Below, in pieces: positions 12,268 to 35,798 of a DNA stretch of 36,018 nt. Under the pieces are notes generated by a model. The model was not told where the DNA came from. It made no database searches and saw only the letters and a program-made list of their open reading frames with translations. The stretch comes from Candidatus Omnitrophota bacterium (GTDB lineage: Bacteria; Omnitrophota; Gorgyraeia; Gygaellales; JAHJCI01), in contig JADHWR010000004.1 in NCBI GenBank assembly GCA_016783355.1, positions 1-36,018 on the forward strand. The letters run 5' to 3'. The position numbers were made by a program, and so were the translations under genes. Position 1 is the first letter of the stretch. The number at the start of each line of letters is the position of its first letter.

Positions 12268-12302
12268 GGTAGGCGAGGCAGTGGGCGGCCCAGAATTGCC
12301 CG

Positions 12303-12324
12303 CCATGTACCGTATGGTACAGGG
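12303..12324 (+). mobile_element. 22-bp family-2 palindrome, TSD CCCG
   Basis: ccatgtaccgtatggtacaggg between cccg repeats. Confidence 0.72.
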
Positions 12325-12342
12325 CCCGCTTGTAAATGAGAG

Positions 12343-17673: not shown

Positions 17674-19010
17674 AACTATTAATCAAAGACGGACACGTAA
17701 TTAATCCAGAGAGCAAACTTGACGGCATCTGCGATATATTAATTGAGAAGGGAAAGATTGTAAAAATTGCCAAAAACCTGAATGTTGCCGATGCAAACCC
17801 CGTTCGAAGTAAGGCGCCAGGGGCGACTGCCCCGCCTGCGGCGGGGACTTCGAACGGGGCAAAAATAATTAGCGCAAAGGGAAAATTAGTTTTGCCTGGC
17901 TTAATTGATATACATACTCATCTTCGTGTTCCAGGCAGAGAGGATGAAGAGACACTTCTTTCAGGGATGCAGGCAGCAGCAAGGGGAGGTTTTACGACGA
18001 TTTGCTGTATGCCCAATACTCAGCCAGTAATTGACCATGCGCAGGTTGTCCAGGCAATTACCAAAGAGGCAGGGCTATTGGGTTTAATAAATATTATACC
18101 TATTGGTGCAATTACCAAGGGCCAAAAAGGAGAGGAATTGACAGAACTTGCTGATTTAAAAGAGGCAGGATGCCGGGCAGTTTCTGACGATGGCTTTCCT
18201 GTAGTCAATGCCGGTCTTCTGCGTCGCGCTTTTGAATATGCCTCTATGCTTGGGCTTTTGGTTATTTCACATTGCGAAGATTTGAATTTGAGCAGAGCAG
18301 GATTAATGAATGAAGGTCTAACCAGTACAATTTTAGGCCTCAAGGGTATTCCTGAGATTGCCGAGACAGTTATCGTCAGCCGCGAGATTGAGCTGGCACG
18401 TTATTTGAATATCCCGGTGCATCTTGCTCATATCTCCTCATCTCGTTCAATAGAGTTGATTAAGCAGGCAAAAGAGCAGGGGATTAAGATAACTGCGGAG
18501 ACCTGCCCGCATTATTTTAGTTTAACGCAAGATTTACTGATGAGCTTTGATACCAATTTAAAGGTAAATCCTCCCTTACGCCGGAAAGAAGATGTAGAGA
18601 AAATAAAGTTAGCCCTTAAAGAAGGCATAATTGACTGCATTGCCACGGATCACGCACCGCATTCAGACAATGAGAAGGAATTGGAGTTTGATCTGGCTGC
18701 GTCAGGCACCATTGGCTTAGAGACTGCCTTAGCAGTAAGTATTACAGAATTAATTAATAAAGATATACTCAGCTGGCAAGGCCTGGTGAGGCTGATGTCG
18801 TTGAATCCGGCAAGGATTTTAGGTCTGGATAAAGGTAGTCTCAGAGAAGGAAAAGAGGCAGATCTGATTGTCCTCGACCCGAATGAAGAATGGGTGGTCA
18901 AAAAAGAGGACTTCCTTTCCCGCTCCAGAAATTGCGCATTCTTAGGAATGAAGCTAAAAGGCGTGGTTGAGTATACAATCTGCAATGGCAAGATTGTCTA
19001 TAAAAGGTGA
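17670..19010 (+). CDS. pyrC: Dihydroorotase, with a 22-codon repeat-derived insertion
   Basis: [36 protein letters not shown]. Confidence 0.95.
17798..17859 (+). mobile_element. 62-bp palindromic mini-element (family 1) in frame in pyrC, TSD CAAA
   Basis: 13-bp TIRs ccccgttcgaagt/acttcgaacgggg; caaa directly flanking both ends; 62+4=66 nt = 22 codons. Confidence 0.88.
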
Positions 19011-19120: not shown

Positions 19121-19620
19121 AGTTTATCCTTACTCCTGAATTAGGTCGACTTGCTAAATGGTTGAGGATTCTGGGTTATGATAGTGTCTATTTTAAGGAA
19201 AGTAATTTTTCCTCTTTACCCCGTTCGAAATCGCAGACGCAGTCTGCGTCTTATTTCGAACGGGGTTTACTTATCCAGACTTTACGCGAGGGCCGCGTAG
19301 TCTTAACGCGTAATCACCGTTTCTTAAAGAAAGCAAGCTCTCGCGCATTAGAGATTAAAAGCGAAAAAGTAAAAGAGCAGATTAAACAGGTTTTAAAAGA
19401 ATTGAATCTGAAGCCGCAGAAGCATTTAATGTTTAGCCGCTGTGTTATCTGCAATGAGGAACTTAAATCTATAGAAAAAGAAAAGGTAAAAGAAAAGATC
19501 CCGGAATATGTATATCAGACAGAAAATGATTTCCTCAGTTGTCCTGTGTGTCAGCGTATCTACTGGCAGGGAAGTCATTGGGGTAATGTGCAGCGTTACT
19601 TAATAGAGGCTTCCTCTTGA
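19117..19620 (+). CDS. Mut7-C RNase-domain/zinc-ribbon protein
   Basis: MKFILTPELGRLAKWLRILGYD, REGRVVLTRNHRF, CVICNEEL...CPVCQRIYWQGSHW. Confidence 0.85.
   Translation: MKFILTPELGRLAKWLRILGYDSVYFKESNFSSLPRSKSQTQSASYFERGLLIQTLREGRVVLTRNHRFLKKASSRALEIKSEKVKEQIKQVLKELNLKPQKHLMFSRCVICNEELKSIEKEKVKEKIPEYVYQTENDFLSCPVCQRIYWQGSHWGNVQRYLIEASS
19219..19265 (+). mobile_element. 47-bp family-1 element in frame in the Mut7-C gene, TSD TTTA
   Basis: 13-bp TIRs ccccgttcgaaat/atttcgaacgggg; inner gacgcag/ctgcgtc hairpin; ttta on both flanks; 47+4=51 nt. Confidence 0.88.
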
Positions 19621-19663
19621 GCGAGGACAATTTTGGGCTCCGCCGAAGACAGGGCCCGCTCAT
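19603..19663 (+). repeat. Composite repeat copy W (atagaggcttcc...gagcgaggacaattttgggctc...cccgctcat)
   Basis: Near-identical to 27632-27692 (reverse) and 35616-35671 (forward). Confidence 0.85.
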
Positions 19664-27300: not shown

Positions 27301-27693
27301 GCTCATGCTTTGAGGAAAAACAATATTCCTGTAAGAGTTCTTCCCCGGGTAAGTGAGGCAAGGCCCAATGTGATTGATTTGATCAAGGATGGAAAGATTC
27401 AATTAGCAATTAATACCCCCTCAGGAAGAATACCTCGCGAGGATGAAGTAAAGATTCGCTCCCAGATTACTTTGTATAATATTCCTTATACGACAACTAT
27501 TCCAGGTGCCCAGGCTTTGGTAAATGGGCTTGAAGTTTTTATCAAAAGAGACCTGAATGTTACTGCCTTGCAAGAATATCACAAAGCAACGGGTAGCACC
27601 GAGACGAAATCCTCATTCGCGCGCAGTGAAGATGAGCGGGTCCTGTCTCGGCAGAGCCCAAAATTGTCCTCGCTCAAGGGAAAGCCTCTATAG
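24322..27693 (+). CDS. carB: Carbamoyl-phosphate synthase large subunit, with repeat-derived C-terminal tail
   Basis: Duplicated ATP-grasp halves; [23 protein letters not shown] and [21 protein letters not shown]. Confidence 0.97.
27632..27692 (-). repeat. Composite repeat copy X (reverse orientation) covering the carB 3' end
   Basis: Reverse complement matches 19603-19663 and 35616-35671. Confidence 0.85.
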
Positions 27694-27729
27694 GGTGTAA
27701 TTCGCTGCGGGCAATTCTGGGCAGCCCAC

Positions 27730-27771
27730 CCATTCGACAAGCTCAGGGTTGGCACTGAGCAAAGTCGAAGT
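27730..27771 (+). mobile_element. 42-bp inserted palindromic repeat (attcgacaagctcag...ctgagcaaagtcgaagt), flanked by gcccac duplication
   Basis: gcccac at 27724-27729 and 27772-27777; the corresponding empty site is at 12276-12298. Confidence 0.75.
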
Positions 27772-27818
27772 GCCCACTGCCTCGCCACCCGTTCATCTTC
27801 ATAGACAAGGAAGGAAAG

Positions 27819-31020: not shown

Positions 31021-32151
31021 ATGGAGTTTTATTTATTTTTTCTTATCGCATTAATTATCACTGCAGCAATTATCATTACTTTTTGGTGGTTGAGTAAACG
31101 CATCCCCCAGGCATTTGACCAAGAGCAGATTATCAGCCGGCTTAAAGAAACATTAGGAGCACTTTCCTTTGAAGCACTCTCTAAAAATACAGAACAATTT
31201 TTGAAACTTGCTCGGCAGACCCTGGCAAAAGAGACAGAGGTGCACACAGAGCAACTTCAGGGCAAAAAGGAGCTAATTGACCAGACACTTCATGAAATGA
31301 GAGAAAAATTGACTGAGGTAGAATCTGTTGTTAGAAATTTTGAAAATGAGCGCAAGGAGCAATTTGGAGAGGTTTCAACACAGTTGAAATCTGTAGTAGA
31401 AACCACATCTCGGCTGCAAAATGCACTTGCCAGCAGTAAGGCTCGCGGGCAGTGGGGCGAGAGGATGGCAGAGGATGTTTTAAGGCTCGCTGGCTTTATC
31501 GAGGGCGTAAATTATAGAAAGCAGAAGACATTAGAATCAGGTCGGCCGGATTTCACCTTTCTTTTGCCACAGGATCTCATTGTCAATATGGATGTTAAAT
31601 TTCCCTTTGATAATTATCTGCACTATCTTGAGGCAAAGGAGGATTCAGAGAAGCAAAGATATAAAGAGCAATTCTTGAGAGATGTAAAGGCAAGGATAAA
31701 AGAGGTTACAAGCCGGGATTATATTAATCCTGCTCAGAATACGATAGATTATGTGATTCTTTTTATTCCCAATGAGCAAGTTTACGCATTTATTAATGAA
31801 GCCGATAGTTCCATGTTGGATGAGGCATTAAGAAACAAGGTTGTATTTTGTTCTCCGCTTACTTTATATGCAATCCTTGCTGTAATTAGGCAGGCAACTG
31901 ACACATTTAAATTAGAACACACAACCGGTCAAATCCTTGGTTTACTGGGGACATTTAATAAACAATGGGCTAAATTCGTTGAATCTATGGCAAAAATGGG
32001 CAAGAGTTTGGAAGATGCCCAGAAGGAATTTGACACCTTGGTTTCTACCCGGCGCAGACAACTGGAGCGGTCCCTTGAAAAAATCGAGGAATTGCGCACA
32101 GAAAAAGGAATAAATCTGATTACCAATGGATCGACTCAAACAGAAGAATGA
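31021..32151 (+). CDS. rmuC: DNA recombination protein RmuC
   Basis: N-terminal TM, coiled coil, SSKARGQWGERMAEDVLRLAGFIEGVNYRKQ, DVKFPFDNY. Confidence 0.93.
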   Translation: MEFYLFFLIALIITAAIIITFWWLSKRIPQAFDQEQIISRLKETLGALSFEALSKNTEQFLKLARQTLAKETEVHTEQLQGKKELIDQTLHEMREKLTEVESVVRNFENERKEQFGEVSTQLKSVVETTSRLQNALASSKARGQWGERMAEDVLRLAGFIEGVNYRKQKTLESGRPDFTFLLPQDLIVNMDVKFPFDNYLHYLEAKEDSEKQRYKEQFLRDVKARIKEVTSRDYINPAQNTIDYVILFIPNEQVYAFINEADSSMLDEALRNKVVFCSPLTLYAILAVIRQATDTFKLEHTTGQILGLLGTFNKQWAKFVESMAKMGKSLEDAQKEFDTLVSTRRRQLERSLEKIEELRTEKGINLITNGSTQTEE

Positions 32152-34643
32152 AAGAGTCTGTTTCCTTTCCACATATTTATGTAGTGGAAGCATCTGCCGG
32201 TTCAGGGAAGACGCGTGCCCTTTCAGAAAGATACGTTGATTTCCTCTTAAACCCTCCGCAAGTTCCCTTTCCCATCCCTTTTGATTTCCGCAATATCTTA
32301 GCAATTACATTCACTAATGAAGCAGCCAATCAAATGAGACAGAGGGTCCTTCTTGTCCTTAAGAAAGAGGCATTAGAAAAAGGGAGAAAAAAGGCAGGGA
32401 ATCTGGTTGATAGAATCCTAAGGGATTATTCGGATTTGCGCATTATGACGATTGACAGCTTCATCAATCTGCTTTTGATTGCCTCAAGTCTCCAGTTGAA
32501 ACTACCGCCGTATTATGAGATTATGCCTGATTCCAGTCAATACCTTAGTTTTGCTTTGAATAGTTTATTAGAAGATATTGAAGCGCAACCAAAGATAAAA
32601 AATATTTTCTTAGGCTTCATGAAATCTTATCTTGAAATTGAGAATCAAAGGAGTTGGCACCCCAAAAGAATATTGCTTAATTTACTTGATGATTTACATC
32701 GTCAAGAAAATATGCGGGCAAAGGATTTTAGTGCAGATTTACCCCGCCCTGTACCGTATGATACAGGGCGGGGTTTATTTAAGACAGAAGCACAACTAAA
32801 ACAAGACCTCATGGTTTTTTTTGATTGCTTAAAAAGCAAAAGGAATATTGAACAGCGCTTTTTAAGAACACTAGAAGGCGCCTTGGATAAACAGGGCAAG
32901 GCTTTTGTTGCGAGCCTCTGCGAGATAGTTAAAAAAGAGCCACATCTGAGGGGCGAGGTCGAAAATTTATGGAAGAGGATTAAAAAGAAATCAGAAGATT
33001 ATCTTTATGTCTTCTGTCATCTCAAGAATAAGTTTTATTTAGAGGTATTTTTTGCCTTTCAGGAGAGACTTCGGGAGGTGAAAGAAAAAAAGCGTATTGT
33101 TTTTTTGGACGAACTTAATAAAAAGGCAAAAGAACTTTTAATGAAAGAAAACATCGTAGCAGCTGAGATTTATTATAAATTATCTGCCCAGATTTTCCAC
33201 TATCTTATTGATGAATTTCAGGATACAAGCAAACTCCAATGGCAAAATATTGAGGTTTTAGTTGAGGACGCTATCAGTAAAGGCGGAAGTCTTTTTTATG
33301 TCGGCGATAAAAAGCAGGCAATATATCGTTTCCGCGGTGGAGATCTTCGATTATTCGACCAAATAAAAAAACAATTCCATATTCCTTCTCAAAATCTGTA
33401 TGAAAGGAAGCTTAATTTTAACTATCGCTCTCGTTGGGGGATCGTCAATTTTAATAATCAAGTATTTAGCCAAGAGAATTTAACCAGGTTCCTGAGAGAA
33501 AATAAGAATTTAACCATTGAGGCCCAGAGAAGAATCCTCAATGTTTTTAAAGGCAACTTACAGGCGCTGCCTACTAAAGAAAAAAAAGACCAAAAGCGCC
33601 GCTGCGTTTATACGCAGATAGTCTCGGGTAAAGATAGAGGGGAGCTTGCGAAAAATATAAAGGCAAAGCTTAAAGAAACACTTTCTCGCTTAAGAAAAAG
33701 GTTCAATGATGAAGACATACTGATTCTTATGCGGCAGAATTCTCAGGTACGGGAGATTGTTGGTTTTCTGATTGAGGAAAATATTCCTGTTGCCTCCAGC
33801 CGCACAATTAGCATTGGTAACAATTTCTTAATTAAAGAGATTATATCTTTGCTTAATTTTTTGAATTCACCCACTGATAATCTTTCATTTGCAGGCTTTA
33901 TCCTTGGCGACATTTTCCTTAAAGCCGAAGGCATAAAGCAAGAGCAATTATATGATTGGTTTGAAACTTTAAGCAAGGAAGGTTTTCGGGGTAGTTTCTA
34001 TGCAGAATTTCGTCATTGGCAGCCTGGGGTTTGGCGCGATTTTTTTGAATATTTATTTAAAGGAGCAGGGATTTTACCTGTTTATGATTTAGTTTCCGAG
34101 GTATATTTCCGTTTTAAAATTGGCAAAAATTTCCCTGATTTTGAAGGTTTTTTTCGGCATCTCTTAGAGGTAATAAAGAATCGGCAAGAGCAAGAGGGCT
34201 CTTTGGGTGATTTTTTGAGGTGGTTTTCGGATGCCTCTGAAGAAGAATTGAGTGTTTTATTGCCTGAGAATCTGCCGGCAATTAAGGTATCAACCATACA
34301 TAAAGCAAAGGGTTTAGAAGCGAATGTTGTGATTTTACCTTTTGTTAATTTGGAACCAAAATTAACGCAAAGAGGAAAACCGGCTAATGTTGTTCTTGAG
34401 GATGAAGACAAACTCCACCTTCTTTATTTTAAAAAGGAGATTCTCTTTGCCCATCCATATTTAAGAGATATATATCAACAAAAATACTCTCAGGCATTTT
34501 TGGATGAATTAAACTGCCTTTACGTTGCTTTCACGCGGGCAAAAGAGGAACTTCACATATTAATACCGACGAAAGACAGAAAGGAAAATCCTATTATTTC
34601 ATTATTGTCGTATGAGCAAAGCGCCACACCAAATTCTTTCTAA
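32148..34643 (+). CDS. AddA/UvrD-like superfamily I helicase
   Basis: VEASAGSGKTRALSERYVDFL, LAITFTNEAANQMRQR, YLIDEFQDTSKLQW, VGDKKQAIYRFRGGD, STIHKAKGLEANVVILP, LYVAFTRAKEELHIL. Confidence 0.92.
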   Translation: MKESVSFPHIYVVEASAGSGKTRALSERYVDFLLNPPQVPFPIPFDFRNILAITFTNEAANQMRQRVLLVLKKEALEKGRKKAGNLVDRILRDYSDLRIMTIDSFINLLLIASSLQLKLPPYYEIMPDSSQYLSFALNSLLEDIEAQPKIKNIFLGFMKSYLEIENQRSWHPKRILLNLLDDLHRQENMRAKDFSADLPRPVPYDTGRGLFKTEAQLKQDLMVFFDCLKSKRNIEQRFLRTLEGALDKQGKAFVASLCEIVKKEPHLRGEVENLWKRIKKKSEDYLYVFCHLKNKFYLEVFFAFQERLREVKEKKRIVFLDELNKKAKELLMKENIVAAEIYYKLSAQIFHYLIDEFQDTSKLQWQNIEVLVEDAISKGGSLFYVGDKKQAIYRFRGGDLRLFDQIKKQFHIPSQNLYERKLNFNYRSRWGIVNFNNQVFSQENLTRFLRENKNLTIEAQRRILNVFKGNLQALPTKEKKDQKRRCVYTQIVSGKDRGELAKNIKAKLKETLSRLRKRFNDEDILILMRQNSQVREIVGFLIEENIPVASSRTISIGNNFLIKEIISLLNFLNSPTDNLSFAGFILGDIFLKAEGIKQEQLYDWFETLSKEGFRGSFYAEFRHWQPGVWRDFFEYLFKGAGILPVYDLVSEVYFRFKIGKNFPDFEGFFRHLLEVIKNRQEQEGSLGDFLRWFSDASEEELSVLLPENLPAIKVSTIHKAKGLEANVVILPFVNLEPKLTQRGKPANVVLEDEDKLHLLYFKKEILFAHPYLRDIYQQKYSQAFLDELNCLYVAFTRAKEELHILIPTKDRKENPIISLLSYEQSATPNSF
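32742..32773 (+). mobile_element. 32-bp palindromic mini-element (family 2) in frame in the helicase gene, TSD TTTA
   Basis: ccccgccctgta/tacagggcgggg 12-bp arms; ttta on both flanks; 32+4=36 nt = 12 codons. Confidence 0.85.
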
Positions 34644-35232
34644 TCTCCTGGCCAGCCAGCTTGTGCCTTTAAGCGAATTGTCCTATTTTGCTAAAGAGGC
34701 AGGAAAAAAGCGCGGTGAGGTTATTCATTATCTCTTATCCCTTGTTGATGATATTGATGAATTCCTGCCCGCACTGAAAGAAAAGGTAAGAGCTGCCTGT
34801 CATCGTTTTCTTTACCCCCTTCGAAGTAAGTCGCCAGAGGTGACTGCCTCGCCTGCGGCGGGGACTTCGAACGGGGTTTATAATGATGCAGAGGAGATAA
34901 TCGCCACCTTACGGAAGATTTTAAATTTGCCGAAGATACGGGAATTGTTTTCAGAAAAAAACAACCCTGCTTATAATGAAAAAGAAGTGGTAGACAAACA
35001 AGGTAACTTGAAGCGTATCGACCGGCTGATTCTTAAAGAAAAAGAGATTATTGTTGTTGATTATAAAACAGGAGAGTCATACAGCAAAGAACATGCAGGA
35101 CAGATTAAGGAATATATTGATATTTTAAAAGAGATTTATCCCAATCGTTCTTATCGCGGTCTTTTGATTTATATTGACACTAAAGAAATCAGGGAAATAG
35201 GGGACGGTTGTGCTCGCTCAGTAATTCAGTAA
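34612..35232 (+). CDS. PD-(D/E)XK (RecB-type) nuclease domain protein
   Basis: GNLKRIDRLILKEKEIIVVDYKTGE...QIKEYIDILKEI. Confidence 0.83.
   Translation: MSKAPHQILSNLLASQLVPLSELSYFAKEAGKKRGEVIHYLLSLVDDIDEFLPALKEKVRAACHRFLYPLRSKSPEVTASPAAGTSNGVYNDAEEIIATLRKILNLPKIRELFSEKNNPAYNEKEVVDKQGNLKRIDRLILKEKEIIVVDYKTGESYSKEHAGQIKEYIDILKEIYPNRSYRGLLIYIDTKEIREIGDGCARSVIQ
34815..34876 (+). mobile_element. 62-bp family-1 element in frame in the nuclease gene, TSD TTTA
   Basis: 57/62 identical by eye to the pyrC copy; ttta on both flanks. Confidence 0.88.
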
Positions 35233-35343
35233 CCTTTTAAAGAGTTGGCTAATTACTGAGCATTTATAAGCGGGTGGCGAGACTACCCGAATGAAAGTAT
35301 TTATTCCCAGCGCTGAAATCTTTCAGCGGCCTGCTACGGCTTA

Positions 35344-35411
35344 CCCCGTTCGAAGTCCCCGCCACGGAATTTAGCGGGGCAGTCGCCCCTGGCGTCTTAC
35401 TTCGAACGGGG
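35344..35411 (-). mobile_element. 68-bp family-1 element (reverse orientation)
   Basis: 13-bp TIRs ccccgttcgaagt/acttcgaacgggg; reverse complement shares aagrcgccaggggcgactgcccc core. Confidence 0.85.
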
Positions 35412-35573
35412 TAATTCCTTGCAGACACTTGCCGAGAGATTTCTAATTGCGCTGTCCATAAAAACTTTCATTCTCAAGTCAAGCGGCTCATAGATCTTTG
35501 GAAGTCGGACTTCCAAAATTGATCTTATAAGCGGGTGGCGAGGCAGCCCCGCCTACGGCGGGGAAATAGCCCG

Positions 35574-35595
35574 CCCCGTACCATACGGTACGGGG
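35574..35595 (+). mobile_element. 22-bp family-2 palindrome, TSD CCCG
   Basis: ccccgtacc/ggtacgggg; cccg on both flanks; empty site at 27704-27715 (reverse). Confidence 0.75.
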
Positions 35596-35671
35596 CCCGC
35601 AGCGAATTATGCCCTATAGAGGCTTCCCCTTGAGCGAGGACAATTTTGGGCTCTGCCGAAGACAGGACCCG

Positions 35672-35693
35672 CCATGTACCGTATGGTACAGGA
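35672..35693 (+). mobile_element. 22-bp family-2 palindrome, TSD CCCG
   Basis: ccatgtaccgtatggtacagga between cccg repeats. Confidence 0.7.
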
Positions 35694-35798
35694 CCCGCTT
35701 GTTTCGATGCTTGATATTTGATTCGAAGGATCATTTTCGGAAGTCGGACTTCTGAACTTTAAAGAAGTCAGCGAGAACCGTCCTTGATATGACCCGAT

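Follow-up and report, generated by a model that had tools for sequence, protein, structure and literature searches.

Small dispersed repeats (SDRs) of cyanobacteria were reportedly described by Elhai et al. (2008, Genome Res 18:1484). SDRs, which are also treated in PMC2884548 and PMC3116915, are sequences of about 20-27 bp that are dispersed, thought to be mobile and found inside larger repeats. Mitochondrial DNA also contains short hairpins, the GC clusters of yeast and the repetitive hairpin-forming elements (RHE) of sponges, which spread into intergenic DNA and into parts of rRNA that tolerate them; transposition at the DNA level has been proposed for GC clusters, and the Allomyces elements reportedly have no target duplications (PMC2800124). 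Among bacterial repeats, REP and REPIN sequences, which occur with RAYT genes, are mostly extragenic palindromes of 20-40 bp (PMC3116915, PMC3733652), and REPs carry a GTAG or CGTC tetranucleotide at one end (PMC3733652). Bacterial MITEs, at 50-500 bp, and with them the Rickettsia palindromic elements (RPEs, ~150 bp), have inverted repeats, duplicate their target and occasionally insert in frame (PMC10969869).

We analyzed a stretch of 36,018 nucleotides (the window; contig JADHWR010000004.1 of a Candidatus Omnitrophota bacterium) that holds a 22-bp palindrome between two copies of CCCG. Judged by description, the SDRs appear to be the closest known kind, and in its manner the palindrome also resembles the organelle hairpin elements. 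It has the length of an SDR, is repeated and has both filled and empty sites in copies of a larger host repeat (at site A, 22 are empty and 4 are filled); unlike an SDR, it is a near-perfect palindrome with target duplications of 4-5 bp, and its core GTACCRTAYGGTAC is common to several unrelated uncultured phyla. From the mitochondrial hairpin elements it differs in being bacterial and in having clear target duplications. The inverted repeats and target duplication that mark a MITE were found as well (CCCG and ACCCG in the window's own genome, and 15 of 57 sites elsewhere), but the 22-mer has no internal sequence and no known parent, and its 22 bp against 50-500 bp (PMC10969869) ruled out an ordinary MITE. 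No occurrence of the palindrome core turned up in the literature searched. We consider it probable that the 22-mer is mobile, a very short palindromic unit that inserted several times independently at staggered cuts of 4-5 bp in copies of a ~112-bp repeat. As a mobile unit, it would be among the smallest mobile DNA units seen.

The palindrome and its host repeat in the window

The 22-mer occupies site A of a host repeat in which a second site, B, is also filled. The relevant features, in window coordinates, are as follows.

35570..35573, plus strand: left copy of the doubled target CCCG, at site A of the host repeat; empty copies have one CCCG
35574..35595, plus strand: 22-bp palindrome CCCCGTACCATACGGTACGGGG, the presumed mobile unit
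35596..35599, plus strand: right copy of the doubled target CCCG
35530..35698, plus strand: host repeat AGCGGGT...ACCCGCT, sites A and B both filled; ~112 bp when empty
35667..35697, plus strand: second insertion, at site B, with CCATGTACCGTATGGTACAGG (palindrome 35672-35692) between two copies of ACCCG
27636..27712, minus strand: empty host copy comprising the right part of the repeat, with a single CCCG at site A and a single one at site B
27707-27800, minus strand: insert of the ACTTCGACTTTGCTCAGTGCCAACCCTGAGCTTGTCGAATGG type
19603..19659, plus strand: fragment from the right-hand side of a host copy, with an empty site B
12281..12333, plus strand: host remnant, with the left half to site A, CCATGTACCGTATGGTACAGGG (12303-12324) between CCCG copies, then the right-end CTTGT
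32738..32777, plus strand: 32-bp palindrome CCCCGCCCTGTACCGTATGATACAGGGCGGGG (32742-32773) with TTTA on either side, inside a UvrD/AddA-like ORF (32148-34643)

The letters and coordinates that an earlier note on this DNA had given for the 22-mer and its two CCCG copies were right, and the empty counterpart it had named is real: positions 27680-27715, read on the minus strand, give TTGCCCGCAGCGAATTACACCCTATAGAGGCTT with a single CCCG. Right of site A, the two in-window host copies share 95% identity over 65 nt. Their left flanks are unlike (AAATAG vs AATTG, with other nested inserts further left), so this filled/empty pair is imperfect by itself. The earlier note had taken the pair as direct evidence of insertion; alone, it showed no direction, and a genome-wide count was therefore needed. 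The remnant at 12281..12333 (C3:12299) looks like the outcome of a deletion between site-A and site-B palindromes, which would make it an A-by-B recombinant. We also observed that the inner hairpin GTGGGC-GGCCCA of the host copy at 35530..35698 is swapped for the palindrome CCCCGCCTACGGCGGGG at about 35548-35564, a hairpin-for-hairpin exchange.

The palindrome core is not a chance match. It was found 4 times in the window vs 0.05 expected. In the window's own genome (G000, a metagenome-assembled genome of 1.16 Mb whose assembly is 78% complete), pattern searches for the core with at most 2 mismatches gave 16 matches vs 7 for a reversed-pattern control, and the full 30-mer pattern with 3 mismatches gave 12 forward and 5 reverse matches vs 0. 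Within the UvrD/AddA-like ORF, CCCCGCCCTGTACCGTATGATACAGGGCGGGG translates in frame as PRPVPYDTGRGL, and 29 homologues of this ORF are about 5-8 residues shorter at that position; an insertion at 32742 is backed loosely by this comparison, because insert plus TTTA should make a difference of exactly 12 residues, not 5-8.

The same ORF (831 aa) overlaps a PD-(D/E)XK ORF (206 aa) at 34612-34643 in a different frame, and relatives carry a single ORF of about 1050 aa; the two ORFs read as an AddA/RecB-type gene that has been split or frameshifted. The nuclease ORF (34612-35232) holds, in frame at 34814-34876, a 63-bp inverted-repeat element, ACCCCSTTCGAAG...CTTCGAACGGGG, and the homologues compared are short of about 22 residues there; the element is also found at 17797-17859 and 35343-35412.

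Filled and empty copies of the host repeat

Filled and empty sites were compared among host copies within G000. The empty form of the host repeat, ~112 bp in length, reads AGCGGGTGGCGAGGC..GGCCCAAAATAG, CCCG at site A, CAGCGAATTAT..GACAGGA, CCCG at site B and a final CT. About 30 copies, full or partial, were found in G000, and the repeat was absent from the other 144 related genomes searched. An Rfam search with the window and four host loci returned tRNA matches only and none for the host repeat or the palindrome, and neither host repeat nor palindromes had a match in phage and plasmid records.

At site A, 26 copies keep both flanks, and 22 of these are empty, each with a single CCCG; this count leaves out two more filled copies that are truncated or recombined (C26:4084 and C3:12307). 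The earlier note had proposed such a count, with a majority of filled copies as the outcome that would tell against insertion, and the filled copies came to 4 of 26. At site B, the right end of the host repeat, 25 copies are empty and 5 filled. The filled copy at C71:12023 and the empty copy at C68:4 are identical across an 82-bp host segment after removing 26 bp. On a short and weakly resolved tree of host copies, the filled copies were scattered, with at least 4 changes required and a single origin in 0% of bootstrap trees. Since the majority of copies are empty and the filled ones scattered, insertion is favoured over loss, and the tree pattern, within its weak resolution, fits repeated gain better than repeated loss.

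These counts uphold the earlier claim that a short palindrome inserts with a target duplication, and they amend its length, which is not strictly 4 bp but rather 4-5 bp. At C35:9297, site B shows a clean 5-bp duplication, with CCCTGTACCATACGGTACAGGG between two copies of ACCCG, and others at site B have lost one base; at site A, CCCG with a 22-mer and GCCCG with a 21-mer fit equally. Tandem palindromes with a 26-bp period were found at C35:24177 and C10:61814, as is expected if the doubled CCCG was reused as a target.

Filled copies could also have multiplied by homologous recombination, with one original insertion per site, after which filled host copies would have been duplicated or copied by gene conversion, and no further transposition. 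The palindrome subtype does track the site (the CCCCG type is mostly at A, the CCATG/CCCTG type mostly at B), some copies have wider downstream flanks in common (CTTGTTGTCAAAT), and C3:12299 resembles an A-by-B recombinant. However, differing subtypes occur at one site, site A of C35 is a tandem of two subtypes, and the core palindrome is found with its own flanks outside host copies (C3:32742). We regard spread by recombination as unlikely; repeated insertion of the 22-mer leaves room for conversion as a secondary route, given the flanks shared among some filled copies.

The same host repeat carries a second type of insert after GTGGGC, which begins with ACTTCGACTTTGCTCAGTGCCAACCCTGAGCTTGTCGAATGG and is followed by GTGGGC again. 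Besides the window copy at 27707-27800, it was seen in G000 at C68:8881-9036, C77:11921-12108 and C69:10991-11147, and it resembles a further nested mobile repeat that duplicates 6 bp.

Proposed route of insertion

In the mechanism that we propose, a staggered cut of 4-5 bp in a host-repeat copy would take up the 22-mer, and gap filling would double the target, giving CCCG/GCCCG at site A and ACCCG at site B. Re-insertion beside an earlier copy would then produce the tandem 26-bp units. The enzyme would be a recombinase acting in trans, making ~5-bp staggered cuts at C...G targets and recognizing the core. Lone half-sites outside full palindromes numbered none in G000, with its 78% complete assembly, and a few in genomes G182 and G176; with none in G000, no parent element with these ends is visible. 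Against the mobile-unit reading count the lack of a visible parent, the variable length of the duplication (4-6 bp) and the ~22-bp size of the palindrome, which gives little room for two transposase subunits. If a 22-bp palindrome does insert with target duplication, mobile DNA can shrink to two fused end repeats, and the distinct target duplications would offer a direct handle on the enzyme, from which stagger, target preference and core recognition sequence could be read.

A described candidate for this enzyme would be a RAYT (Y1_Tnp / IS200-like) transposase, with the 22-mer as its REP element. The size and palindromic form match REPs, and carriers of the 22-mer often have RAYT genes (Y1_Tnp genes were present in 10 of the 12 carriers tested, with 2 in G000). 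However, the GTACC copies carry no GTAG/CGTC tag; their ends are CCC..GGG or other arms, and the variable target comes next. They also have a target duplication, whereas IS200-type transposition is not known to make one. Nor was the 22-mer seen beside RAYT genes: those in the inspected loci were bracketed, where palindromes were seen, by other palindromes (AATTTTGGAAGTCCGACTTCCAAAATT in G000), and among the core-bearing loci examined two had a Y1_Tnp gene, at 0.9 and 3.6 kb from the core. Because the REP tags are absent and the target is duplicated, we rejected a classification as REP, and we hold movement by a RAYT to be quite improbable.

Another palindrome of the window, GGAAGTCSGACTTCC, with T/A flanks, lies at 35494-35520 and 35733-35759, and the core of AATTTTGGAAGTCCGACTTCCAAAATT is also found at 35494-35520. 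A RAYT-type transposase gene (open frame of 252 aa) at about 9.2-9.6 kb of contig C61 in G000 (L293) lies between copies of GGAAGTCSGACTTCC; palindrome and gene are likely a REP/REPtron of this lineage.

Palindromes at tRNA 3' ends

At several loci the palindrome follows a tRNA acceptor end, and the acceptor's last 4-5 bases recur behind it. These are a tRNA-Gly 3' end with CCCG[22]CCCG (L217), a tRNA-Glu 3' end with CGCTG[22]CGCTG (L226) and two tRNA-Gln 3' ends with CGAG[22]CGAG (L243 and L248). The 29 tRNA-Gln genes from relatives of genome G456 end in CGAG or CGAA, and none has a palindrome after the acceptor end. The tRNA-end sites are independent evidence of gain, although past the tRNA the sequence is too variable for a full empty site to be aligned.

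A palindrome flanked by short direct repeats is easily lost precisely, which also leaves an empty site. The ancestral repeat could have held the palindrome, with replication slippage between the CCCG copies removing it from most copies, and the scattered filled sites on the host tree are also obtainable by many losses. Such a history would demand many exact losses to arrive at 22 empty copies of 26. Moreover, at unrelated sites the same core lies between differing direct repeats, and some of these sites are tRNA ends that have no palindrome in relatives, so that a gain step is needed anyway; precise deletion is very improbable as an explanation. Insertion of the 22-mer, if true, means that small genomes of uncultured bacteria can acquire hairpins at tRNA ends and within genes.

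The core palindrome in other genomes

Scanned for exact matches, GTDB genomes yielded 62 stretches with the 22-mer pattern, chiefly from Patescibacteria and Omnitrophota, with further carriers in WOR-3, Aminicenantes, Saganbacteria, Planctomycetota and Deltaproteobacteria; the core GTACCRTAYGGTAC is present in genomes of Patescibacteria, other Omnitrophota, Saganbacteria, Aminicenantes and Deltaproteobacteria. Since hairpins are frequent and the bare 14-mer was barely above the reversed control among 384 randomly drawn Patescibacteria (12 genomes vs about 7), the raw number of matches is by itself no proof of a family, and we took abutting direct repeats in the flanks as the proof. Among 57 distinct sites outside G000, 15 had exact abutting direct repeats of at least 4 bp (4-6 bp) vs 0.78 expected from 2000 shuffled pairings (maximum 4), and 11 had repeats of at least 5 bp vs 0.55 expected. 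Over all 123 sites, direct repeats were found at 49 vs a shuffled mean of 7.2 (maximum 16). The 42 of 57 outside sites with no exact duplication of at least 4 bp count against the insertion reading. Other palindromes in the same loci served as a control and gave no excess (4 with flanking repeats vs 3.96 expected) in a scan that trimmed G/C-extended arms; untrimmed, the signal went undetected even in the core set.

The duplicated targets vary by genome (CGGAG, CTCCG, CTTCG, CGAAG, CTGGG, CCTG, CTGA, TGAA, TCTA, TCCTA and GTCGCA), and most have a pyrimidine first and a purine last. Differing targets at unrelated sites are what independent insertion predicts, and they support it. Where the target has the form GCNNNGC, the site can be described equally well as a 20-mer with a 7-bp repeat; sites of the gaCGGAG[22]CGGAGcc type fix a 22-mer with 5 bp. 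Genome G182 (Levyibacteriota) has 14 core copies, most of them as GCGAAG[22]CGAAGC, between CGAAG copies of a common repeat, of which strict empty copies numbered 2-4 by a single pattern, too few for use. Nine IMG/VR contigs contained the 18-bp core with no clear duplications. We tentatively suggest, as a possibility somewhat short of probable, that one ~22-bp palindromic unit with the core GTACCRTAYGGTAC circulates in Omnitrophota, Patescibacteria, Saganbacteria, Aminicenantes and Deltaproteobacteria, that it inserts at 5-bp staggered cuts, including at tRNA 3' ends, and that an undescribed enzyme moves it.

A second class of sites has no duplication and was left out of the evidence for the mechanism. 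Inverted flanks of at least 4 bp, as in terminator-like hairpins, were found at 11 of the 57 outside sites vs 1.0 expected. In L225 (1475-1791), identified as RNase P RNA by Rfam alignment, P3 consists of a GTACC palindrome and P12 of another. The palindrome also lies within 23S sequence in L101; on sequence grounds only, it does likewise in L241, and in L222 and L103, which gave no Rfam match, it stands ahead of AGGAAAGTCC at the P3 position of RNase P. The RNase P and 23S sites show no duplication. This class may comprise chance matches, hairpin-loop insertions, conversion or replaced hairpins.

That the GTACC hairpins are throughout ordinary terminators or RNA hairpins matching the pattern, and the cross-phylum family an artefact of the large size of the collection searched, would agree with the inverted flanks, with RNase P palindromes that are simply P3 or P12 and with the near-control frequency of the 14-mer in Patescibacteria, but it is extremely improbable and already contradicted for the direct-repeat class, as it cannot yield a direct-repeat excess that is missing from other palindromes in the same loci, or 14-16 copies per single genome where control matches are few or absent.

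A second palindrome, about TCGCATAAGATATATTATGCGA, adjoins GTACC palindromes in L198 (3093-3150, an IMG/VR contig) and L155 (4854-4920, a Patescibacteria MAG). In L133 (4464-4493, an Acidobacteria MAG), a 30-bp perfect palindrome, AGTAGGGGCGATTCATGAATCGCCCCTACT, lies between two copies of CGAAGA and is possibly another short palindrome with a target duplication.
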